Of a DNA stretch of 64,000 nt, positions 24,910-42,338 are shown in pieces. This DNA is from Candidatus Scalindua sp. SCAELEC01 (lineage in GTDB: Bacteria; Planctomycetota; Brocadiia; Brocadiales; Scalinduaceae), in the NCBI GenBank assembly GCA_004282745.1, contig SHMT01000001.1, positions 62,001 to 126,000 of the forward strand. The letters run 5' to 3'. A program made the position numbers and the translations under genes. Each line of letters begins with the position of its first letter. The first letter of the stretch is position 1. The notes beneath the pieces are model-generated. The model had not been told where the DNA came from and did not search any database. It saw nothing but the letters and a program-made list of their open reading frames with translations.

Positions 24910-25422
24910 ATGAGTCAAGCACTTGAAGCTAAAGTAGAACCAGAAACTGTTTTGGAATGGATAAAGAGGATTGGAAGCGATTCGTCATCAACTGTTCCCC
25001 TGCTACAGGCTGTTCAATCTGAATATGGATATTTGCCGAGGGCGGCGATGGATTTGATAGTGAAAAACTCCGACATAACCGGCAGGCAGGTTTACGGGGT
25101 TGCGACCTTTTACTCCCAATTTAGATTAAAGCCAGTCGGGCGACACATTATTAAAATATGCCATGGAACAGCCTGCCATGTTTCAGGCGCTGACCGGCTC
25201 AACACTTCTCTTCGGCATTTGTTAAATATTGACGATGAAGAGCAGGATACCGCTGAAAACGGCAGCTATACAATCGAACAGGTCGCCTGTATTGGATGCT
25301 GTAGTCAGGCGCCGGTGATGGTTATATCCGACGAGGTTTCAGGAAACCTTACCGGGGCTAATGCTCAGAGGGCATTGAAAAAGCATGCCAAAAAGAGCGA
25401 AGAGGTTGTCGCTAATCTGTAA
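24910..25422 (+). CDS. NuoE/HydC-type [2Fe-2S] subunit of a flavoprotein NAD(P)H complex
   Basis: 170 residues. Thioredoxin-like ferredoxin of the 24 kDa complex I type, with cluster cysteines in 'CHGTACHVSG' (residues about 83-92) and 'CIGCCSQAP' (about 128-136). It forms the electron-input module with the next gene. Since nuoA-D and nuoH-N are absent here and a GltD-containing subunit follows, this is not complex I but a soluble complex of the HydABC / Stn / NADP-reducing hydrogenase kind. Confidence 0.88.
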   Translation: MSQALEAKVEPETVLEWIKRIGSDSSSTVPLLQAVQSEYGYLPRAAMDLIVKNSDITGRQVYGVATFYSQFRLKPVGRHIIKICHGTACHVSGADRLNTSLRHLLNIDDEEQDTAENGSYTIEQVACIGCCSQAPVMVISDEVSGNLTGANAQRALKKHAKKSEEVVANL

Positions 25423-25538
25423 AAAGTGTTGATGGTAAGTTATATCTTAATCCATTTTGTCTGAGACGGTGTCGTAGTATTATCTGTCCTATCAGCAAAT
25501 GCTGGTGGTTTACCCAATTATTTATTGAAAGTTGAATA

Positions 25539-27317
25539 ATGGATGCAAATAATCTTAACGTAATTGTTGGAGAAGGGACTTGCGGAATTGCGGCTGGTTC
25601 AAAAGAGGTGATAGAGGCCTTTCAGAAATACGCTCCCGAAATAAACATCAAGAGTGTCGGTTGTGTCGGTATGTGTCATCAGGAGGTAATCGCTGAGATA
25701 AATGATAACAACGGCAATCGGTATATCTATGGTCAAGTCACAAAGAAAACGGTTCCACAAATCATAAAGTTTCATAAAGGAGAAGGTGAGCCTCTTGATG
25801 AGAATTTAATATACTCACCGGAAAAACAGGACTCTCACAAGTGGCAGTATCTGGGGCATCAAACCAGGATAGCCCTCCGAAATGTCGGAAATCTGGACCC
25901 CACTTCAATCTCCGACTATGAGAAGAGGGACGGATACAAAGCAATTAAGAAAATCGTTGCAGAGATGACGCCTGATCAGGTTATCGAGGAGATAAGAATT
26001 TCCGGTATCAGAGGCCGCGGTGGAGCAGGATTTCCAACCCATGTCAAGTGGGATTTTGCGAGAAAGTCTGAAGGAGATGTAAAATATCTGATCTGTAATG
26101 GTGATGAGGGAGACCCGGGAGCCTTTATGGATCGCTCTCTTTTGGAAGGAGACCCCCATAATGTGATTGAAGGTATGCTGATAGCTGCCTATGCCATCGG
26201 AGCTACCAAGGGATATGCGTATGTGCGTGCAGAATATCCTCTGGCGGTGAAAAATTTCGGAAAAGCTATCGAGGATGCTCATGCATTGGGTGTTCTCGGT
26301 GAAAATATTCAGGGAAGCGGGTTCTCCTTTGACATCAAGATTAAGGAAGGGGCAGGCGCTTTTGTCTGCGGAGAAGAGACGGCCCTGATTGCCTCGATTG
26401 AGGGAGACAGAGGTATGCCGAGATGTAAACCTCCGTTTCCGGCGGTGAAAGGTTTGTTTGGCAAGCCGACCATTATCAACAATGTTGAAACCCTGGCTAA
26501 TCTGCCATGGATAATTAATAATGGAGGGAAGGCCTATGCTGCTTACGGTACAGAGGATTCCAAAGGAACAAAGGTGTTTGCTCTGGCTGGGGCCATTAAA
26601 AAGGGGGGATTGGTTGAAGTCCCGATGGGTACAAAGATCCGTGATGTATTGGAAGATATCGGTGGTGGGTCTTCATCAGGGAAACCGTTTAAGGCGGTAC
26701 AGCTTGGTGGACCATCCGGAGGCTGTATCCCGGAAAGCCTTTTTGATACGACAATTGAATATGCTTCGATAAATGCAACAGGGGCAATTATGGGATCGGG
26801 TGGAATGATCGTGATGGATGGGTCTACCTGTATGGTTGATCTCGCCAAGTATTTTCTCAGTTTTACCCAGCTGGAATCGTGCGGGAAATGTACATTCTGT
26901 AGAATTGGTACTTTGAGGATGAGGGAGCTTTTGACGAAGATTTGTGACGGGGAGGCTGAAATGTCAGACTTGGACACCCTTGATGAGTTGGCCGAGCAGA
27001 TCACCAAGTCTAGTCTGTGCGGATTGGGGCAGACGGCGCCAAATCCGGTCGTCACTACGTTAAGGTATTTCCGCGGTGAGTATGAGGCGCACATTAAAGA
27101 TAAAAGTTGCCCTGCCGCTGTATGTAAAAGCTTGATAACCCATACTATTGTCCCTGCCGATTGTACAGGGTGTTCCTTATGTGAAATTCAGTGTCCGGTT
27201 GGTGCAATAACGGGAGAAAAGAAAGTAAAAGGTTCCTATGCTATTATTCAGGCAAAATGTATAAACTGCGGAATGTGTTTCGAGGTCTGTAACTCGAAAG
27301 CTATTCAGGTGAAATAA
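25539..27317 (+). CDS. NuoF/HydB-type FMN and Fe-S subunit
   Basis: 592 residues. An N-terminal thioredoxin-like ferredoxin domain (about 1-90, 'GTCG', 'CVGMCHQE') is followed by the 51 kDa-type domain with NADH/FMN site 'GRGGAGFPTHVKWDFA' and 'YLICNGDEGDPGAFMDR', then the 4Fe-4S motif 'ESCGKCTFCRIGT' and two C-terminal ferredoxin clusters ('CTGCSLCEIQCPVGAI', 'CINCGMCFEVCNSKAI'). This is the domain order of HydB/HndC/StnB. It should oxidise or form NAD(P)H at FMN and pass electrons to its partners. The stop is followed within 2 nt by a repeat end unit. Confidence 0.92.
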   Translation: MDANNLNVIVGEGTCGIAAGSKEVIEAFQKYAPEINIKSVGCVGMCHQEVIAEINDNNGNRYIYGQVTKKTVPQIIKFHKGEGEPLDENLIYSPEKQDSHKWQYLGHQTRIALRNVGNLDPTSISDYEKRDGYKAIKKIVAEMTPDQVIEEIRISGIRGRGGAGFPTHVKWDFARKSEGDVKYLICNGDEGDPGAFMDRSLLEGDPHNVIEGMLIAAYAIGATKGYAYVRAEYPLAVKNFGKAIEDAHALGVLGENIQGSGFSFDIKIKEGAGAFVCGEETALIASIEGDRGMPRCKPPFPAVKGLFGKPTIINNVETLANLPWIINNGGKAYAAYGTEDSKGTKVFALAGAIKKGGLVEVPMGTKIRDVLEDIGGGSSSGKPFKAVQLGGPSGGCIPESLFDTTIEYASINATGAIMGSGGMIVMDGSTCMVDLAKYFLSFTQLESCGKCTFCRIGTLRMRELLTKICDGEAEMSDLDTLDELAEQITKSSLCGLGQTAPNPVVTTLRYFRGEYEAHIKDKSCPAAVCKSLITHTIVPADCTGCSLCEIQCPVGAITGEKKVKGSYAIIQAKCINCGMCFEVCNSKAIQVK

Positions 27318-27318
27318 C

Positions 27319-27343
27319 GCTTGAACGGAAACCCGTAGTTGGG
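27319..27343. repeat. Palindromic-element end unit (solo, diverged)
   Basis: 'GCTTGAACGGAAACCCGTAG' resembles the left end of the 45182 element ('GTTTGAACGAAAACTACCC'). It starts 2 nt after the stop of the NuoF-like gene. Confidence 0.45.
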
Positions 27344-27395
27344 TCAAATTAAAGAAAAATTTTAATTTACATAAATAAAACTCCAGGTGTTGATA

Positions 27396-30350
27396 ATGAG
27401 TGAGAATGTAACAATAACATTAAATGGTAAAGAGATAGAGGTTCCCTCTGATGCAACGATCAGAGAGGCGGCAAAAAGCCAGGGAATTGAGATCCCGACC
27501 TTCTGTTTTGATGATAGATTAAAAGCGTATACGAGCTGTTTTCTGTGTGTTGTAGAGGTGGAGAAGGCAAAGAACATGATACCCGCCTGTAGTACAGCGG
27601 TTACTCCCGGTATGGTGATAAGGACCGACACTGAGGCTATTAGGAAAACTCGGAGAATGGCACTTGATTTGATACTGTCTGACCACAGCGGCGACTGCAT
27701 TGCCCCCTGTGAGGACACCTGCCCTTCAAACATCGATGTACAGGGCTACATAGCCCATATTTCAAACGGTAATTATCCTGCTGCAGTGAGATTGATAAAA
27801 GAGAGAAATCCTCTACCGGTCGTTTGTGGGAGAATTTGTCCTCATCCGTGCGAATCTCAATGTAGAAGAGGTCTTGTTGATGAACCGGTAGCCATTAATC
27901 CACTCAAGAGGTTTGCATCTGAATACGAGTTGAATTATGGTCCGTTTCTTCCCGAGACGAAACCGGATACTGGCAAAAAGGTGGCAATTGTGGGTGGAGG
28001 TCCAGCGGGGCTCTCTGCCGCCTATTTTTTGAGACAGCAGGGGCACGCGGTAGATCTCTACGAAGCTCTCCCCGAGTTGGGGGGAATGGCACGATACGGT
28101 ATCCCGAAATTCAGGTTGCCGTGGGACAAGCTGGATAAAGAGATCAGCGCAATCACTGATCTTGGCGTCTCTGTGTATAAAAATCAGAGATTAGGTAAGG
28201 ACTTTACTATTGATGATCTCAAAAACGGTGGTGCCGGAGCGGTACTGTTGGCCATAGGTGCACACAGGGCCAAAAAAATGGGGATAAAAAATGAAGAGGT
28301 AGAGGGCGTAATCGGGGGGATTGATTTTCTCCGCAAGGTCGTGCTCGATGAACCGGTAAAAACGGGAAGAAGCGTTGCTGTCTTAGGTGGTGGCGACACC
28401 GCGATGGATTGTGCACGGGTTGCCAGGCGATGTGGCGTAGAAAATGTCACCTTGATCTACCGTAGGTCACAAGAAGAGATGCCGGCACTCCAGCATGAGC
28501 AGGATGAGACCATGGAGGAGGGTGTGGAGTTCCGGTTCCTGACTGCTCCGGTAGAGGTACTTGAGGAAAACGGAGTAGCGAAAGGGTTGCGAGTGGTATC
28601 CATGAAGCTTGGAGACCCTGATGATTCTGGCAGAAGAAGACCTGAACCAATTGAAGGGAGTGAAGAAGATCTTGAATTTGATCTGATTATCGCTGCGATA
28701 GGACAGGATCCTGACCTCTCCTGTGTGGAAAAAGAGAAGAGTATACCCGACTGTACCCGATGGAATACCTTTAAATATGACGAAAAATCAATGGTGACAT
28801 CTGTAGAGGGTGTCTTTACGGCCGGCGATTGTGCTTTTGGGCCTGACACGGTAATTCGTGCTGTGTCGGAGGGAAAGCAGGCGGCAAAAGCGATCAATCT
28901 CCTCTTTAGCGGAGCCAAAGTTGAAATTAAAAAGGAGTATCAAATTACCAAGGGGAGATTGAAAGACCTCAATATGGCAGATTATTCACCTAGATATGTA
29001 CATCAGAAACGAGCGTTGGAGGCTACATATCCTGCCAAAGTTCGTATGGGAGAGGGTGGTTATAACGCCATTAATGTCGGGATTAGTGAAGCTCATGCCC
29101 TCGCGGAAGCCACTCGCTGCATTGAGTGTGGTTGTGCGGCCCGTTTTGATTGCGATCTGAGGGATTACTCAACCGAGTACGGTATTGGCGATGTGAAATT
29201 TAAGGGCGACAGGAGAGAGTACCATGTTGATACCAGACACCCCTTAATCTGCATTGAAGCAGACAAATGTATTACGTGCGGTAGTTGCGTAAGGGTCTGT
29301 AGTGAAGTGAGAAATATTTCGGCCCTCTCTTTTGTGAACAGAGGTTTTTCCACGAAGATCGCCCCAAATTTTGAGGACCCACTGCAAAAAACGGACTGTG
29401 ACGCCTGTGGGATGTGCATTGATTTATGTCCAACCGGCGCTATCGCTGAAAATACCGGCAAGGAATATGGACCCTGGCAGACCGAAACAGTTATCAGTAG
29501 CTGTACTTCCTGTCAGAGGGGTTGTGCCATAAAGGTACATACCAACGAGGGTTTGATAACCAAAATCGAGAGCGTCGATAATGATCCTGTCAACGGCGCC
29601 CTTATTTGCAGGGAGGGTAGATTCTCAAACCAACTGCAGGACAAGGGTATTAAGTTTGATGATAAAGAACTGGAAGGGCGGCTGAACAGCTCAAAAGGCA
29701 TCTTGGACACTGCGAATGAATTGGCCGTTATTGTATCTCCCCGATTGACCGTTGAGGCCCTTTTTACCGCAAAAAATCTCTGTGATGAGAAAAAGGGTAC
29801 CCTCTATTATCTACCGAGTGAGAAAGCTGAACTGAACAAATTTCCACACGCCAAACTAAAAAACAGTGCCAATGCTGCCTTTCTCGGAAAACTTGCGGCA
29901 AAACCGTGGGACAACTCTGAAGCGGACTGCATTTTACTGGTAGGCGTATGCCTGGAGGCGAAACCCCTTGCATCTACGAAAATCATTGCGATGAGTAATT
30001 TCAAGTGTGGTGTTGATGCAGACGTACAAATACCACTGGCAGATCCGTTAAGGAGTGAAGGCGCAGTGATTACGGATAAGGGGTACCTTGCATTCCTCAA
30101 CACAAACCTTCCTGTTGGTGGGGATTCGACACCTTACAACCTTATGGCAAAGATAGGTGGCTTAAAGGGTTTTAGCGATATCTCTTCGGTTCGAAAGCAG
30201 TTGGCAGAAAAATATCCCGAACTTAATGGTTTACTCAATGGGGGAACCGAAAGGCTTGTGAAAACTAATTTGGAACCTCATATAGTGGATGTCGCTCCTG
30301 ACTGTCGTGAAGTCGCCTTTGAAAAACTCTGTGAAAGTAAGGGATTGTAA
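27396..30350 (+). CDS. Large Fe-S flavoprotein: 2Fe-2S, GltD-like FAD domain, ferredoxins, NuoG-like tail
   Basis: 984 residues from the ATG at 27396; a GTG at 27387 is possible. Order: NuoG-type 2Fe-2S domain (about 1-85, '[12 protein letters not shown]'); GltD/NfnB-like Fe-S domain ('[15 protein letters not shown]', '[16 protein letters not shown]'); FAD site '[15 protein letters not shown]'; NAD(P) site '[19 protein letters not shown]'; '[14 protein letters not shown]' (to about 505); 4Fe-4S motifs '[11 protein letters not shown]' and '[16 protein letters not shown]' (570-690); then '[12 protein letters not shown]' and a degenerate molybdopterin-oxidoreductase-like end. No H-cluster. With the two genes before it, it forms a likely electron-bifurcating NAD(P)H/ferredoxin complex resembling StnABC of Sporomusa. 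That function is inferred. Confidence 0.85.
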
Positions 30351-34667: not shown

Positions 34668-36305
34668 TTATTCATACTCTTTCAATAACGATTCCAGGGC
34701 CGCCTCTTTGCTTTCCTCATCATTTTCTACTATCTTTTCTACGTTATCGAGAAATGTGTAACTATCATCGATTTTGTCTCTGAGTATCAACTTTATGATA
34801 AGAGTGAAACTTATCTTCTTTATATACTCATCGGCATTGGGCAGATGAAGTGCTTCGATTCTGTTTTTTAACTCCCGGTTTTGGTAGATCAGGTCAAGGG
34901 AGGGGGTGAGTGTACCCGTAAAATCATCGAACAGGACACGATCTTTCTCTATACCAAGGTTATTTGCTGCAGCATCGATAACGGTTACCGTCATAGGGGC
35001 GGGACCACACAAATAGAAGGTGGTGTCAGGGGCAGGTATGACGTATTCCGTGAGCCAAGGTCCGATAAAGCCTGTTTTACCCAACCATCTCTCTCCGCTC
35101 TCATCAATCATCTTATCGTTGTAGATATTTCTCTTTAGCTCATCTGAAGCCCGATTAAGGCACTCTTTATCTACACTGTTCATCACTGCCGGGTCGTCTC
35201 CCTTAAACGCACCTGACAATACGGGGATAAATTCAAAATTTGGATATCTCTTCTCCCGGTTTAACCACCTTGATATATACCGTAACGGTATGTCCTGAAA
35301 TCTCCTTTCACCAAGGAAGAGCAATATTTTCTCCCGACGTCCTTCATTGAACCACTGTTCCATCAGGGCCAATATTGGGGCCAAACCGGCACCCCCTGCG
35401 ACAAAAACCGCATTGTGCTTCTCTCTCTTCAGGTGGAAATTCCCATAGGGGCCCGTAAACCGGATCCTGTCTCCAACCCATAAATTCCAGATTGATTCAT
35501 CTTGAAGGTAATCTTTTATACAGCGAGGTCCGATACACGGGACACCTCCCTCTTCAATCGGTACACGGGGGTTAATGGGTGCAATTCTCGTAACCAACCT
35601 TAGTATATCTTTGTTTGTTGAAGCAATTGAATAGGCACGATATATGTCCATTCCGGGAGTATAGGGAATAAATGCTCTGTCAATCTCTTTGCAATAACAT
35701 TGTATCTGTTCCCCAAATTGCTTGTAATGCTCCTCAGCATAATCATCGGGTAGTCGTATCTGTATATATTGCCCGGGAACAAAGTCAAATTTCTGAAATG
35801 GGTAGAGGTGTATTTCATACTTATCGCTGGTGAGTTGTATCTTTTTCACAACTCGTGCTGTATATTTTTTTACGTGTAAGGTTGACCTGGGGAGATAGAC
35901 ATCTATATCTTTATCTACCCGCACCTGACAGGAGAGTCTCGTATATCCGTCACCCTTGCCCTCTTCGAGAAACTCCCTCGTCTCTTTTCTTGCCCTACTG
36001 TCAAAGAGAGGGGTCTCGGTAGGTGCATAGGGGCCCATATTCGTAAGCAACTTAACCTTGCATTGTCCACATGTGGCATTTCCACCGCATCCGGATGAGA
36101 TATGAAACCCCTTGTTTTGGAGAACAGAGAGTAATTTTTCACCACCTTCAAAATCTAACTCCTTTTTGAAGGCATCATCACTATGAATAGTCAGATTCAG
36201 TCTCTTTCCCTTGCCAAATAGCTGGTATGTTATCTCGCTGAGACCGGACAGAGCGAGCATAAGTACGACAATAACGATTATGGTGAGTATGATAGGCGTT
36301 AGCAT
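34668..36305 (-). CDS. nqrF: Na+-translocating NADH:quinone reductase subunit F, extended
   Basis: 545 residues against about 407 in Vibrio. It takes electrons from NADH to FAD and a 2Fe-2S cluster. Seen: N-terminal helix (about 5-22); cluster motif 'GCGGNATCGQCKV' (Cys73, 79, 82) with a fourth Cys in 'LSCQVRV'; FAD site 'YRAYSIAS'; NADH site 'VAGGAGLAPILAL'; 'FYLCGPAPM'; and 'LFDDFTG', where most NqrF proteins end. Here another 83 mainly helical residues follow, and about 40-50 residues are inserted after 'FEFIPVLSGAFKGDD'. Last gene of the nqr operon, separated from nqrDE by a palindromic element. Confidence 0.93.
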   Translation of the reverse strand: MLTPIILTIIVIVVLMLALSGLSEITYQLFGKGKRLNLTIHSDDAFKKELDFEGGEKLLSVLQNKGFHISSGCGGNATCGQCKVKLLTNMGPYAPTETPLFDSRARKETREFLEEGKGDGYTRLSCQVRVDKDIDVYLPRSTLHVKKYTARVVKKIQLTSDKYEIHLYPFQKFDFVPGQYIQIRLPDDYAEEHYKQFGEQIQCYCKEIDRAFIPYTPGMDIYRAYSIASTNKDILRLVTRIAPINPRVPIEEGGVPCIGPRCIKDYLQDESIWNLWVGDRIRFTGPYGNFHLKREKHNAVFVAGGAGLAPILALMEQWFNEGRREKILLFLGERRFQDIPLRYISRWLNREKRYPNFEFIPVLSGAFKGDDPAVMNSVDKECLNRASDELKRNIYNDKMIDESGERWLGKTGFIGPWLTEYVIPAPDTTFYLCGPAPMTVTVIDAAANNLGIEKDRVLFDDFTGTLTPSLDLIYQNRELKNRIEALHLPNADEYIKKISFTLIIKLILRDKIDDSYTFLDNVEKIVENDEESKEAALESLLKEYE

Positions 36306-36573: not shown

Positions 36574-37992
36574 TTAAAAGATATTTATCATCCCGATACC
36601 CGTAAAGATTGCCGCCATGATTCCTAAAAGAAGTATTGCCAGGGAATCTTCATCCCATGAATTTGATGCAACAAACAGTTTTTGGCGCCGCAATACCGCA
36701 AGCCAGACACATACCATGAGCCAATGGAGGCCAAAGCCAAAGGCTGAAACAGTCGTAGCCCAAAAGGAGAGGCCTGATGGGATGGTAAAGGTAGAGCTTG
36801 CAAGGACGATACAGTTTACGGTAATGAGCTCAAGAAACTGCCCCATTTGCTGATATACGTCCATTGCAAAACGTCTGAGCAGTACTCCCAGAATCTGTAC
36901 AAACGTAGCAATGGTAACGATAAAGACCGTCAGGTAGAATATCTTTTCGAGACGCAGGGTAACGGGTGAGATTGCCGCAACGTAATCGCTTACGGTAAGT
37001 AATACCTTATTGTAAACCAGCCAGTTAAGGCTTGTCGATAAGGTGACGACGATGACGACTGCTACTCCCATTTTCCATGCGGCATCAATCTGTCTCGATT
37101 TGTTTAAAAGGGGACAGATTCCCAGGAGCTTACTCAATACGATACCATCAAAAAAGAGGGCGCTCAAAAACAGGGGGAATAGGAGTCTTAGTTGACTCTG
37201 TAAAGGTGAGAATGCCTTCAGGTTGAGGAGCAGACTCACGATAAGAACAGCTCCCACTGCCAAAGTGATGATAAATTTTCTCGATATCTTTGGTAGTTTT
37301 GGTTTTTGGGGAACAGGGGGTGTCTCCTCTACAGTCGTTTCAGCGGCTACCTGTTGGGGTTTGTCCTGTAATACAACGCCTGTCTTTACAAAGAGTGGCC
37401 TGAGCATGAGTCTCCATAATGCCAGAGCAAAAAAACCGCCTACAGGCGTTATCATTAATACCACTACGGGAAAATTCTCGGGAAGCACCCGAAAATTCAA
37501 GATTGTTCCAAATCCCAGAGGTTCTCTCATAAGGGCCAAGAAGATAAGGGCGATAGAGTATCCCATACACGCCTTAAGGATCTTTTTTTGCGCATCCCAG
37601 AATTGGTATGTTAGGCCTTCAGAAATTACGGCAAGGACGATGCAGTTTGTGGTAATAAGGTCAATATAGGCCTGAATACTAAAGGCAATCCTAGGTACTA
37701 TCGCCTGCGCTATCAGATTAAATATCGCAACAAAAACGGATATGATTATCATGAGGAGCGTTATCTTGTGATGGGTACCTGATGCCAGGATTAATTTCCT
37801 AAATGGATAGACGAGGCAAAAGCTGCCACAGGTAACAAAGATAACGCCAACGTTCATGGTAAGGGAGTTCTCCATCTTGTTGGTTACCGCAAGTGCTGAA
37901 CAGAATCCGAGTCCTGCAGCGGCTGTTATGATATAATTGTCCCGTAAAAAGAACTTTGCTACCTGTCTTATATATCTTTCAATCACATTCAT
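36574..37992 (-). CDS. Fused NqrD-NqrE subunit of Na+-NQR
   Basis: 472 residues. Residues 1-205 match NqrD/RnfE ('AAGLGFCSALAVTNK', 'ITTNCIVLA') and about 240-472 match NqrE/RnfA ('LGICPLLNKS', 'ELITVNCIVLAS', 'GFGLHW'). A linker with 'ETPPVPQKPKLPK' joins them and adds a helix. The four cysteines that hold the intramembrane Fe-S cluster between NqrD and NqrE in the Vibrio structure (one early and one mid-protein Cys in each half) all have counterparts. The two subunits are normally separate genes. Overlaps nqrC by 4 bp (ATGA). Confidence 0.9.
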   Translation of the reverse strand: MNVIERYIRQVAKFFLRDNYIITAAAGLGFCSALAVTNKMENSLTMNVGVIFVTCGSFCLVYPFRKLILASGTHHKITLLMIIISVFVAIFNLIAQAIVPRIAFSIQAYIDLITTNCIVLAVISEGLTYQFWDAQKKILKACMGYSIALIFLALMREPLGFGTILNFRVLPENFPVVVLMITPVGGFFALALWRLMLRPLFVKTGVVLQDKPQQVAAETTVEETPPVPQKPKLPKISRKFIITLAVGAVLIVSLLLNLKAFSPLQSQLRLLFPLFLSALFFDGIVLSKLLGICPLLNKSRQIDAAWKMGVAVVIVVTLSTSLNWLVYNKVLLTVSDYVAAISPVTLRLEKIFYLTVFIVTIATFVQILGVLLRRFAMDVYQQMGQFLELITVNCIVLASSTFTIPSGLSFWATTVSAFGFGLHWLMVCVWLAVLRRQKLFVASNSWDEDSLAILLLGIMAAIFTGIGMINIF

Positions 37993-38699
37993 TCTCTCAT
38001 TGCCTCTATTTCTTGCCAGAAGGTTTCCATTGCTTCATTAATCATCTCTTCCAAACCTTTACTTGTGTAGGAAGCACCCGTAATGGCATGTACTTCGTTG
38101 TTACCGACTGATTCTCGACCCCGCACAAAGGAGAGTTTCGGTTTTACGCTTTTCCCGACAAATTGTCTCTTAAATTCGTCATCAGTCATTCTGCCTCCAA
38201 GGCCTGGTGTCTCGGCGTGGTCCAGCACTTCTATCCCTTTTATTGTCTCCTTATCCGGCGCTACACAGAGAAAGAGTGAGATGTCGGCAGCCTTATTAAA
38301 TCCATAGCCAAATTTTGTTACTACAAAACCTGTTCCCTCCAAGTTTCCCTCTTTGTAATACCTGAAAAGTTTCTTCTCTTTTTTGTCTTTATGAAGACCT
38401 CTCATTGGTTGATCTGAGATGTCTGTTTGGGGTAGGTCCTCAACCGTAATGTTCTTTTCGAAAACCCTTTTGATATCTTCTTTATCAGGAGTGCTAAAGG
38501 TAAAGCCAATGAGTTGCTTCTCTTGAACTTTATAGGGAATTTCAAAGATATCAAGGACAGATTTTTTTAACTTTATCTCATGATAGTTCGCTATTCTCGG
38601 TGAAGTAGCAAAATAGACGATGAGCAACAGGGCACAGGGTATTGCCGTAATAAGGGAGATGGTGAAAACCCTTGTTACGATAGTTTTTAATTCATTCAT
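37989..38699 (-). CDS. nqrC: Na+-NQR subunit C, covalent FMN protein
   Basis: 236 residues. One N-terminal helix (about 10-30) and an FMN-binding domain with the attachment motif 'TGASYTS' (S/T-G-A-S/T-x-T), which carries phosphoester-linked FMN when modified by ApbE. 'EVLDHAETPGLGGRM' is another NqrC/RnfG mark. Starts about 48 bp after nqrB. Confidence 0.93.
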   Translation of the reverse strand: MNELKTIVTRVFTISLITAIPCALLLIVYFATSPRIANYHEIKLKKSVLDIFEIPYKVQEKQLIGFTFSTPDKEDIKRVFEKNITVEDLPQTDISDQPMRGLHKDKKEKKLFRYYKEGNLEGTGFVVTKFGYGFNKAADISLFLCVAPDKETIKGIEVLDHAETPGLGGRMTDDEFKRQFVGKSVKPKLSFVRGRESVGNNEVHAITGASYTSKGLEEMINEAMETFWQEIEAMRE

Positions 38700-38747: not shown

Positions 38748-39848
38748 TTATCGATACTTTATCCTCAATACGATAGATTGGATCGGGATCCCTATAAGAT
38801 TCATAATCAAGATGGCATACATAACACCTTCAGTCATAGGGGTAAAATTTCTGATTACTACGGTAAAAAAACCACAACCGACACTAAATATCCACTTACT
38901 CGTCTGATTGTACGTTGTCGTAATGGGATCTGTAGCCATAAAGAATGCAGCAAAGATAAGACCTCCGCTCATGAGCTGTAGTATTGGGGGCACCACCGTT
39001 TCTCCCATGAGCAGTGAGAACAGGAGAGCAAAGAAAAATACACTCCCTAAAAAAGCAACGGGAATTCTCCAGTTTGCAATCCGTTTTCTACACAACCATA
39101 TTCCGCTTATGAGAATGGCTATCCGACACGTTTCTCCCAGGGAACCGGTACCTGTTCCGAGTAAGAGAGAGAGGTACGATGTTATCTCTCCTTTTTCCCT
39201 ATAGAGCATCAGGGGGGTTGCGTGGGTAACAGCATCTACTCCATATTGTAAAGATTCCAGGGTTGGAAGAGTTGTAAGGGGTTCTTGCCAGCCAAGGACA
39301 ATTACAGAGGGAAAACAGATTGTCAAGATCAAGCGACCCAAAAGGGCCGGGTTCACAAGATTATTTCCTACACCGCCGAGGATATTTCGAAAAAGTATGC
39401 TGATGCCTGCTCCCACGCCGATAAGCCAGAGAGGCGCCTGGGGCGGTAGGAATGCGGGGATAAAGAGACACGTTACAAATCCTCCCTCAGTGATCCTCGG
39501 CTCTCTAGCAAGGATGACCCACAATACATCTACAATAAAAACACCGACAACGAGAGAGACAATGATCTTGGGAACCACACAGAAAAATCCATAGAAGTAA
39601 ATGGCTGGGAGGACCCAACCGAAAACCAGCGCCACAATGACACCACCCATATACTGCTTAACATCCATTTGATTTCGAATGAAAGGCGGAGACTTAGCAG
39701 TCTCTTTCGAACTTCTCAAAAGTTCATCAAAGGCTTCGAAGAGTGCCCCGAAAAGAAAATTTACCTTGGGTCGTCTCTCTATAAATGATCCAACCCTGTT
39801 GAGATTTTTGTCTACAATAGGTTCAATATTTTTAATTGTTTTTTTCAT
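38748..39848 (-). CDS. nqrB: Na+-NQR subunit B
   Basis: 366 residues, ten or so membrane segments, the core ion-pumping subunit that also binds FMN and riboflavin. FMN attachment is expected at the Thr in 'VTHATPLMLYR'. Other family blocks: 'FRNILGGVGNNLVNPALLGR' and 'FFMATDPITTTYNQ'. Slightly shorter than Vibrio NqrB (about 415). Confidence 0.92.
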   Translation of the reverse strand: MKKTIKNIEPIVDKNLNRVGSFIERRPKVNFLFGALFEAFDELLRSSKETAKSPPFIRNQMDVKQYMGGVIVALVFGWVLPAIYFYGFFCVVPKIIVSLVVGVFIVDVLWVILAREPRITEGGFVTCLFIPAFLPPQAPLWLIGVGAGISILFRNILGGVGNNLVNPALLGRLILTICFPSVIVLGWQEPLTTLPTLESLQYGVDAVTHATPLMLYREKGEITSYLSLLLGTGTGSLGETCRIAILISGIWLCRKRIANWRIPVAFLGSVFFFALLFSLLMGETVVPPILQLMSGGLIFAAFFMATDPITTTYNQTSKWIFSVGCGFFTVVIRNFTPMTEGVMYAILIMNLIGIPIQSIVLRIKYR

Positions 39849-40013: not shown

Positions 40014-41042
40014 TTATGACTTACACTCCTTTATAACCTGAAGGAGTTCCAGCTTTGAAGGGCAGATAAAGCTGCAGAGTCCGCACTCTATACATTTTTC
40101 TAGACGATAAAGGCGTGCCCTCTCTCTCTCTCCTCGGGTATGACAATGCCAGAACAGGGCGGGTTCTAGATCGACAGGACAGATATCGTCACAATGATTA
40201 CAGTATAGGCAGCGTCTCACTTCACCCATGAGGTTTGTCGTAAAAAGCAACTTGTCTAATTGCATATAAGGAAATGGTGTCTTGTAATCTTTTTCCTCAA
40301 GGACAACAATACTTTTTGTAGACCAGTTTAGGCCCTGACTAAAATCTTTCACTTCATATCCATTGAGAGGTCCGTCAAGAAAAGCACGGTAGTCGATATC
40401 TTCTTTAACATTTCCCTCCACTATTAATCGAAGAGGAGTCCCCGGTGTCACCTTAAGAATTTTGTTTTCCACTAACCCCGTTCCGGATATAGGTATGAGG
40501 CGGGTACTGTGTTTGTTCCCTTCAATATGGTATTTAAATATACCGGAAACAGCCTGAGCATCTAAAATAAGAACACCTACTTCAACGCTATCTTGACCAA
40601 AGGGAAGGTCTAACCCCAGGATATCATTCAATAATAAGACAGGGTCGTCATGGGGATATATAGGGTCTCGGAGGTATGAGTGTATCCAATCACCATTCCC
40701 TTTTAATGCCTCTACCTCTCTCATCAGCTCTCTTTCGTTGGTACTTATGACTACATGGCAATGCGGTCCATCGAAGAGTTGCGTTCGTATGCTGTTTAGT
40801 TGGAAAAAGAGTTCCTGTGCACTATTCTCTATGGCTATTGAGTTTGGAAGCGTCCATGGCTCAGTAGGGCAAAGGTTAATGACGATATGCTCAACCTTTG
40901 TATTTGGTAATGGTATCTTAAATGTCTCAGCTGTGTCATCATATATGACCGGTTCTACCTTTTTTGAGAATGTAATAGGATATGCCTCAATAAGATTGAA
41001 ACCTTTTTTATACACCTTTTTGTCACTCTTACTTTTCTTCAT
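40014..41042 (-). CDS. NqrA/RnfC-like subunit with two ferredoxin motifs
   Basis: 342 residues from the ATG at 41042; a TTG at 41048 adds two. It takes the place of NqrA at the head of the nqr operon. The central part has the NqrA/RnfC layout, but the C-terminus carries 'CLYCNHCDDICPV' and 'CIECGLCSFICPS', the two 4Fe-4S motifs of RnfC, which true NqrA has lost. The N-terminus is 60-90 residues shorter than in NqrA or RnfC and seems to lack the barrel domain. It could let ferredoxin-like centres feed into an otherwise NQR-type pump. The 165 bp gap to nqrB shows nothing else. Confidence 0.85.
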   Translation of the reverse strand: MKKSKSDKKVYKKGFNLIEAYPITFSKKVEPVIYDDTAETFKIPLPNTKVEHIVINLCPTEPWTLPNSIAIENSAQELFFQLNSIRTQLFDGPHCHVVISTNERELMREVEALKGNGDWIHSYLRDPIYPHDDPVLLLNDILGLDLPFGQDSVEVGVLILDAQAVSGIFKYHIEGNKHSTRLIPISGTGLVENKILKVTPGTPLRLIVEGNVKEDIDYRAFLDGPLNGYEVKDFSQGLNWSTKSIVVLEEKDYKTPFPYMQLDKLLFTTNLMGEVRRCLYCNHCDDICPVDLEPALFWHCHTRGERERARLYRLEKCIECGLCSFICPSKLELLQVIKECKS

Positions 41043-41144
41043 AAACAAGGTATTCTTCTGCTTTTTGGAACGCGATGAAATCTTCTTTTACGTTGTTAGA
41101 ATATTTTTTAACATATATTCTGGTTTTTTCAAAATAAAAAACAG

Positions 41145-41732: not shown

Positions 41733-42338
41733 ATGAGTTTGTCAACCGGTGAAGAACAGGCTTGGAAGATCCTTGCAGACCTAAATCCTGAAGATGTATC
41801 CAAAAGAGCAGAGGTGGCTTTTGATAAGGGACCATGCCATTATGTGCTGAGATCATTTGGCTTGGATATTCTTGTTTTCCCTACTGAGAAGAAGATACGG
41901 AACAACTCTCCCACCGGTGAGATTTTGCTCAATAAACTGAGTTATTTTTCAAAGATTTCAATCCTCTGCTATTTGAATAGCGCAAAGGATATTCTTCCCA
42001 CAGGAAAGTTAGAAAAACCTGAAGACTTGAGTGCTGGGCAGATCTATCTAAAAGGGTCTCATATTCTTCCGCTTGATGAGATTGCGAAAAAATATGGGGA
42101 TGACATTAAGGGCTTCTTGAAACGAGGTAAGGAACTTGGTGGAGAACCCTTAGGATATGGAGATGCATCACTGAGGCTCTTTCCTTTTTCAAGAATTCCC
42201 GTTACCCTACTACTCTGGAAGAGTGACGACGAGTACCCCCCCAGGGCCGACCTCCTCTTCGACTCCACCTGCAAGCTCCACCTACCAGAGGATATTGTCT
42301 GGTCAACAGCCATGATGAGTGTTCTTATGATGCTGTAA
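41733..42338 (+). CDS. DUF3786 family protein
   Basis: 201 residues, soluble. The C-terminal block 'RIPVTLLLWKSDDEYPPRADLLFDS' followed by 'LPEDIVWSTAMM' is the mark of DUF3786. In other bacteria the family is found in anaerobes, often near corrinoid or Fe-S proteins; no function is established. Probably co-transcribed with the zinc-ribbon gene. Confidence 0.8.
   Translation: MSLSTGEEQAWKILADLNPEDVSKRAEVAFDKGPCHYVLRSFGLDILVFPTEKKIRNNSPTGEILLNKLSYFSKISILCYLNSAKDILPTGKLEKPEDLSAGQIYLKGSHILPLDEIAKKYGDDIKGFLKRGKELGGEPLGYGDASLRLFPFSRIPVTLLLWKSDDEYPPRADLLFDSTCKLHLPEDIVWSTAMMSVLMML

Follow-up and report, generated by a model that had tools for sequence, protein, structure and literature searches.

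Is a protein that carries RnfC-type ferredoxin motifs at the NqrA position, in an operon that also encodes NqrF, the product of a recent exchange between two ion pumps, or a survivor from the origin of the Na+-translocating NADH:quinone oxidoreductase (NQR) out of RNF? The question is raised by an anammox operon in a 64,000-nt stretch (the window, to whose positions coordinates refer) of Candidatus Scalindua sp. SCAELEC01 (SHMT01000001.1). NqrA has been described as having no redox cofactors (PMC12174285), and in the published model of NQR origin RnfB was lost, then the NAD/flavin mononucleotide (FMN) sites and clusters of RnfC, with NqrF recruited next, in an ancestor of Chlorobi/Bacteroidetes (PMC4014512). 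Phylogenetic reconstruction places the A subunit of the window in the NQR lineage, where cluster-bearing NqrA form a paraphyletic grade and cluster-less NqrA a clade nested within it. Since cluster-bearing NqrA accompanied by NqrF make up this stem grade, the clusters appear to have outlived the recruitment of NqrF. The operon type has been annotated before in anammox bacteria as Na-NQR; the clusters of its A subunit bear directly on NQR origin. We regard the window complex as probably a stem-group NQR, with NADH entering at NqrF and menaquinone as the most likely acceptor of electrons that leave via the A clusters.

Open reading frames (ORFs) and family matches define five genes on the minus strand, running from 41042 to 34668 in the order A-B-C-DE(fused)-F, with gaps of 165 (A/B), 48 (B/C), -4 (C/DE) and 268 (DE/F) bases:

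40014..41042, minus strand: A, the NqrA-position subunit, a truncated cluster-bearing NqrA/RnfC homolog (ORF, family matches, alignments, trees).
40211-40179, minus strand: first 4Fe-4S motif of A, CLYCNHCDDIC (CLYCNHCDDICP), residues 280-290 of the 344-aa reading; kept in orthologs.
40094-40062, minus strand: second 4Fe-4S motif of A, CIECGLCSFIC (CIECGLCSFICP), residues 319-329 of the 344-aa reading; kept in orthologs.
38748..39848, minus strand: NqrB/RnfD, 366 aa (PF03116, 252 bits), with the NQR-type N-terminal stretch LFGALFEAFDELLRSSKETAKSPPFIRNQMDVKQ and FMN motif DAVTHATPL; the only copy in the genome.
37989..38699, minus strand: NqrC/RnfG, 236 aa (PF04205), with FMN motif ITGASYTS.
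36574..37992, minus strand: fused NqrD-NqrE, 472 aa (two PF02508 domains), with all four cysteines of the intramembrane cluster.
34668..36305, minus strand: NqrF, 545 aa (TIGR01941, alignment, tree), with an N-terminal transmembrane helix, 2Fe-2S, flavin adenine dinucleotide (FAD) and NADH motifs, and a Brocadiales-specific C-terminal extension.

The A frame is intact (342 aa from the ATG at 41042, or 344 aa from an alternative TTG at 41048) and contains two complete C-x2-C-x2-C-x3-C-P motifs, which Pfam Fer4 models match above cut-off. Its best NCBIfam match is RnfC (99.9 bits, starting at about model position 150) and NqrA scores lower (54-65 bits), all far under cut-offs; the closest protein match is from Ca. 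Scalindua sediminis (62% identity). All eight cysteines are invariant in aligned Brocadiales orthologs, save one copy with a 30-residue internal deletion, and both motifs are present at 19 of the 21 loci scanned, the exceptions being the deletion copy and a frame-broken one. Such conservation indicates that the motifs are not there by chance. The two damaged copies are single ones, L011:8971-9921, where the deletion removes parts of both clusters, and L045:3285-4361; at G021:C1:688171-689102 it is NqrB that is divided between two frames, and each of these could be either an assembly error or decay. The earlier note's description of an NqrA position held by a protein with RnfC ferredoxin motifs thus stands, with the qualification that A is not a full RnfC. 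Neither it nor the aligned anammox orthologs have the barrel-sandwich domain found at the N terminus of RnfC, or its Gly-rich FMN/NADH loop. In the window protein the region of the RnfC FMN/NAD+ site (Gly-rich loop, ECEPY motif) has either been replaced or is missing, and NAD+ reduction in the manner of RnfC should no longer be possible at A.

The nqrF gene reported in the same note is likewise borne out. The window protein scores 172 bits against TIGR01941, under the 295-bit cut-off, and has complete motifs in the alignment: the 2Fe-2S cysteines, RAYS for FAD and GGAG for NAD. The C-terminal extension of anammox NqrF, about 65-90 residues, is unseen in other NqrF, and NqrD and NqrE form a single fused protein in every examined anammox operon that reaches that far. 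Two further suspicions were dropped: extra cysteines in an insertion of Scalindua NqrF, a candidate for a further cluster, are not conserved in Brocadiaceae, and the unusual THAT motif of NqrB, a candidate for a lost FMN site, lies where RNF and other sets also vary (TRAT, TQAT, TSAT). The genome, which is 98.6% complete and was searched family by family, contains no NqrA_N domain and no full RnfC, and its only NqrB/RnfD and only pair of NqrD/E-type domains are those of the operon. No RnfB was seen in operon or genome; of two PF04060 matches elsewhere, that on contig C101 is a DUF3786 protein and that on C58 was not examined, but neither adjoins an Rnf set and C58 holds no RnfD or RnfA/E. Two ApbE flavin transferases are encoded, which we count in favour of a stem-group NQR.

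A truncated cluster-bearing A was found in 45 of the 62 Brocadiales genomes surveyed, comprising 16 of 17 in the Scalindua-like family f1, to which the window belongs, and 29 of 33 in the Brocadia/Kuenenia-like family f4. The cluster-bearing operon is therefore a conserved anammox trait and not a recent mosaic. The complex is not indispensable, as the complete genome G034 is without the truncated A. Most f1 genomes have this complex alone and f4 also has RNF-type RnfC/RnfD. Some Brocadiales (G005, G034, G015; L038, L041, L034) encode RnfC-RnfD-RnfG without RnfA/E/B alongside, and in G005 an RnfA/RnfE-type protein was not found anywhere in the genome. Two genomes of a deeper Brocadiales family, f2, have a full-length relative of A together with NqrF (L029, L030). 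Further loci came from surveys of Planctomycetota and Desulfobacterota and were then read individually. Operons of the form A(with two clusters)-B-C-D-E-F occur in Planctomycetota (L050, L053, L056, L063; partial L049, L058) and Desulfobacterota (L094, L103, L104, L105). Among the Desulfobacterota NqrF loci with a readable A position, four have a cluster-less A (L099-L102), four a cluster-bearing one and six no A (L090, L092, L093, L096-L098). Matches in Desulfuromonadales (L014-L017) are confined to a short stretch rich in cysteines (26-30% identity); their sole use was to give access to that phylum.

The operon falls in the NQR lineage whether trees are built from A, B, concatenated B+D+E or the D/E paralogs. 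RNF served as the root except in the joint tree of D/E paralogs, which is self-rooted; references from outside Planctomycetota and Desulfobacterota are few, and Chlamydiae are absent from the sample. In the B tree NqrF-bearing complexes form one clade against RNF (100/100), within which cluster-less (canonical) NQR is a single nested clade (100/93) and the cluster-bearing sets are a grade. The A tree likewise recovers canonical NqrA from Planctomycetota, Desulfobacterota, Bacteroidota and Pseudomonadota as one clade (100/100) nested within cluster-bearing A, with L103-105 as its sister (100/100), and its topology is the same after removal of the cluster columns. Canonical NQR is again nested in the cluster-bearing grade in the B+D+E concatenation. 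Reciprocal rooting of the D/E paralogs puts the root inside RNF, with NqrF-bearing complexes nesting within RNF in both halves and the cluster-bearing sets branching early, at the base. Approximately unbiased (AU) tests, whose p-values are bound to the model and concern groups named after a first tree had been seen, reject both a non-nested canonical NQR in B+D+E (p 0.0002) and a union of anammox A with anammox RnfC (p 2e-5); a single clade of all cluster-bearing A is rejected with a log-likelihood difference (delta lnL) of 93.9. That A is an ordinary RnfC, captured or recently acquired, with an nqrA elsewhere, is rejected as well: the tree test speaks against it, and the genome search found no such nqrA. 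Where the earlier note spoke of "a mosaic or an intermediate", the second term is retained, as a paraphyletic stem grade, and the first is contradicted by the separation of A from anammox RnfC.

Loci from the two phyla form a graded series, which suggests the order in which parts of the modern pump were lost and gained. NCBIfam bit scores for RnfC/NqrA shift from 258/128 (L050), 241/128 (L029), 221/97 (L094) and 148/93 (L056) through 127/116 (L063) and 103/123 (L053) to 105/303 (L103) and 88/301 (L105), with window A at 100/54. Pfam matches drift in parallel from RnfC_N and Complex1_51K to NQRA_N and NQRA_2nd, Fer4 being kept throughout until canonical NqrA. The FMN/NAD loop is intact in RNF (GIVGLGGAGFPTHVKL...NGAECEPYLTCD) and half-eroded in L029, L030, L049, L050 and L094 (e.g. 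GVSSLGTSGIPTPHNSS...INGTTSEPFSLP); a three-residue deletion in it is common to L053, L058, L063, L103-105 and all canonical NqrA, and in anammox A it is gone altogether. Two derived features are shared. A loop before the cluster region, corresponding to R330-N379 of Vibrio NqrA, is found in non-anammox cluster-bearing A and in NqrA but not in RnfC, and the N-terminal extension of NqrB is found in all A-bearing NQRs including those of anammox bacteria, but not in RNF or in sets lacking A. Gly140 of NqrB, linked to quinone reactivity (PMC4014512), is found in all A-bearing NQRs sampled but not in RNF. In Vibrio NQR the R330-N379 loop and the N-terminal segment of NqrB intertwine, anchoring NqrA on NqrB, and the N-terminal stretch forms the inhibitor site (PMC9325719). 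These comparisons suggest that the FMN/NAD site was eroded first and that the clusters were lost last, once, after NqrF had been recruited. The window operon is a truncated, fast-evolving branch rather than the least-changed intermediate, for which L029/L030, L049, L050 and L094 are better proxies.

Compared with Na+-NQR (Vibrio cholerae NqrABCDEF), the operon shares gene order, the 2Fe-2S/FAD/NADH sites of NqrF, the NqrB N-terminal extension and Gly140, the FMN motifs and the lineage of the NqrB and NqrD/E cores. It differs in that A keeps two 4Fe-4S motifs, at odds with an NqrA free of redox cofactors, and for this reason we file the complex as a stem-group rather than a canonical NQR. Further differences are the D/E fusion, the extended NqrF, the replaced Gly141 and an anammox A that is without an N-terminal domain and has little of the loop that binds NqrB. 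With RNF (RnfABCDGE) it shares the homologous four-subunit core and, at motif level, an RnfC-type C-terminal two-cluster ferredoxin domain in the A position; in contrast to RNF, no RnfB was seen and NqrF is present instead, the RnfC FMN/NAD+ loop and barrel-sandwich domain are lost, and the cores group with NQR. The Na-NQR with fused D/E annotated earlier in Ca. Jettenia ecosi (PMC6828613) is, judged by description and taxon rather than sequence, probably the same locus type, and the sections of that account considered here carry no remark on clusters in A or an RnfC-like nature. Neither clusters in NqrA nor a cluster-bearing NQR grade is described in the literature searched, outside which lie preprints and most subscription papers. 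Sets of B-C-D-E-F without A (L033, L035, L090, L092, L093, L096-L098, L111-L114, L136) have the same NqrF-bearing core and fall in the clade of NQR, but differ from the window operon in having no A/RnfC beside them and no NqrB N-terminal extension. Their hosts are Planctomycetota, Desulfobacterota and, on a plasmid, Ilyobacter; they are recovered as a single clade with B as well as with B+D+E, and raise the question of a five-subunit pump.

In RNF and NQR alike an input module feeds electrons to the 2Fe-2S cluster of D/E, from which they reach riboflavin(B) by way of FMN(C) and FMN(B); RNF sends them onward through the two RnfC clusters and FMN to NAD+, RnfC being the output module (PMC12174285). 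For the window complex, gene content, motif conservation, phylogenetic placement and the order in which features were lost are shown by the sequences; cluster assembly, ion coupling, electron direction and acceptor are predictions. NADH would be oxidised at NqrF of a redox-driven Na+ (or H+) pump, and electrons would travel through the 2Fe-2S cluster of NqrDE and the flavins FMN(C) and FMN(B) to riboflavin(B). Given NqrF as the entry point and the loss of the FMN/NAD site, we infer that the A clusters act as a final wire, a short way out for electrons of riboflavin; the acceptor, where A meets B at the surface, would most probably be menaquinone. In an autotroph that is in need of NADH, reverse operation may occur as well. 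Crown NQR would later have dropped the clusters, shortening the path so that riboflavin reduces quinone directly.

Several observations weigh against this proposal. Anammox A lacks the segments photolabelled by ubiquinone in Vibrio NqrA (L32-M39, F131-K138), its NqrB-binding loop is shortened, and anammox NqrB has another residue in place of Gly141 and an insertion of one residue close by; the anammox quinone site must consequently differ or be absent. AlphaFold prediction of A with 14 orthologs gave no confident fold (predicted local distance difference test score, pLDDT, 50). The NqrD half alone places L103-105 inside NQR, weakly (93/51), and the branch of the anammox sets, at 1.2-3.6 changes per site, is so long that its exact position within the stem is unsure. 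A more tentative reading, to which we give less than even odds, is that cluster-bearing NQRs constitute a third functional class of RNF/NQR pump, in which NADH enters at NqrF and the two clusters of A lead electrons to an acceptor that is neither NAD+, as in RNF, nor a quinone at the riboflavin site, as in crown NQR; the anammox version would be specialised, perhaps for reverse flow to NAD+ or exchange with a low-potential carrier. A soluble partner may act at A, the more probably in anammox bacteria as canonical quinone contacts are missing from their A.

That thought leads to an iron-sulfur side port, a recast form of the earlier note's dual input, at which the A clusters would swap electrons with ferredoxin or another soluble carrier so that a single pump connects the pools of NADH, quinone and ferredoxin. 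It would account for clusters kept while the FMN/NAD+ module covering them in RnfC was eroded or lost, and for the missing quinone-contact regions. The Wood-Ljungdahl pathway requires reduced ferredoxin. It serves for CO2 fixation in anammox bacteria (PMC6828613). We nevertheless consider a side port unlikely, as the operon has no ferredoxin gene, no RnfB was seen and RnfC clusters are an exit in RNF; by coupling logic, moreover, ferredoxin entry at A to NAD+ would be wasteful, being downhill for electrons and ions, and the forward NADH-to-ferredoxin direction would be uphill for both. The earlier note's dual-input pump, accepting ferredoxin electrons through the NqrA-like subunit, is disfavoured for related reasons: ferredoxin is oxidised at RnfB in RNF (PMC12174285), not at its exit subunit, and the FMN/NAD loop of A is gone. 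We give a similarly low chance to the clusters being structural relics that stabilise the C-terminal domain of A while riboflavin reduces quinone directly, as in Vibrio NQR. In favour of this, NqrB has both Gly140 and the N-terminal stretch, cluster-less NqrA occupies the same position and Vibrio NQR functions without clusters, but all eight cysteines are retained over a broad, old and fast-evolving grade, crown NqrA has lost most of them, and crown NqrA also shows that folding does not need clusters. An independent hybrid, in which an anammox RNF operon lost RnfB, took up nqrF and truncated its own RnfC, would suit the best NCBIfam match of window A and the RNF operons known in the anammox sister family Brocadiaceae; it seems very improbable given that a union of A with anammox RnfC is rejected (p 2e-5), that B and D/E group with NQR rather than anammox RNF, and that the NqrB N-terminal extension is present.

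Around the operon, a DUF3786 gene lies directly upstream on the opposite strand (41733-42338), and the genome encodes at another locus (L028:1480-2253) a further DUF3786-like protein, whose N terminus bears an RnfB-like cysteine motif. Near the operon, genes resembling NuoE, NuoF and NuoG (24910-30350), of which the NuoG-like one includes a GltD-like oxidoreductase domain, probably encode a hydrogenase or dehydrogenase module that is soluble and linked to NAD(P).

Living complexes that combine NqrF with a cluster-bearing NqrA turn the model of NQR origin into a testable series, whose deepest members found here belong to Planctomycetota and Desulfobacterota. Such complexes are, besides, a natural setting for asking what NqrA does in modern NQR, and the anammox "Na-NQR" is to be redrawn in models of NADH supply.
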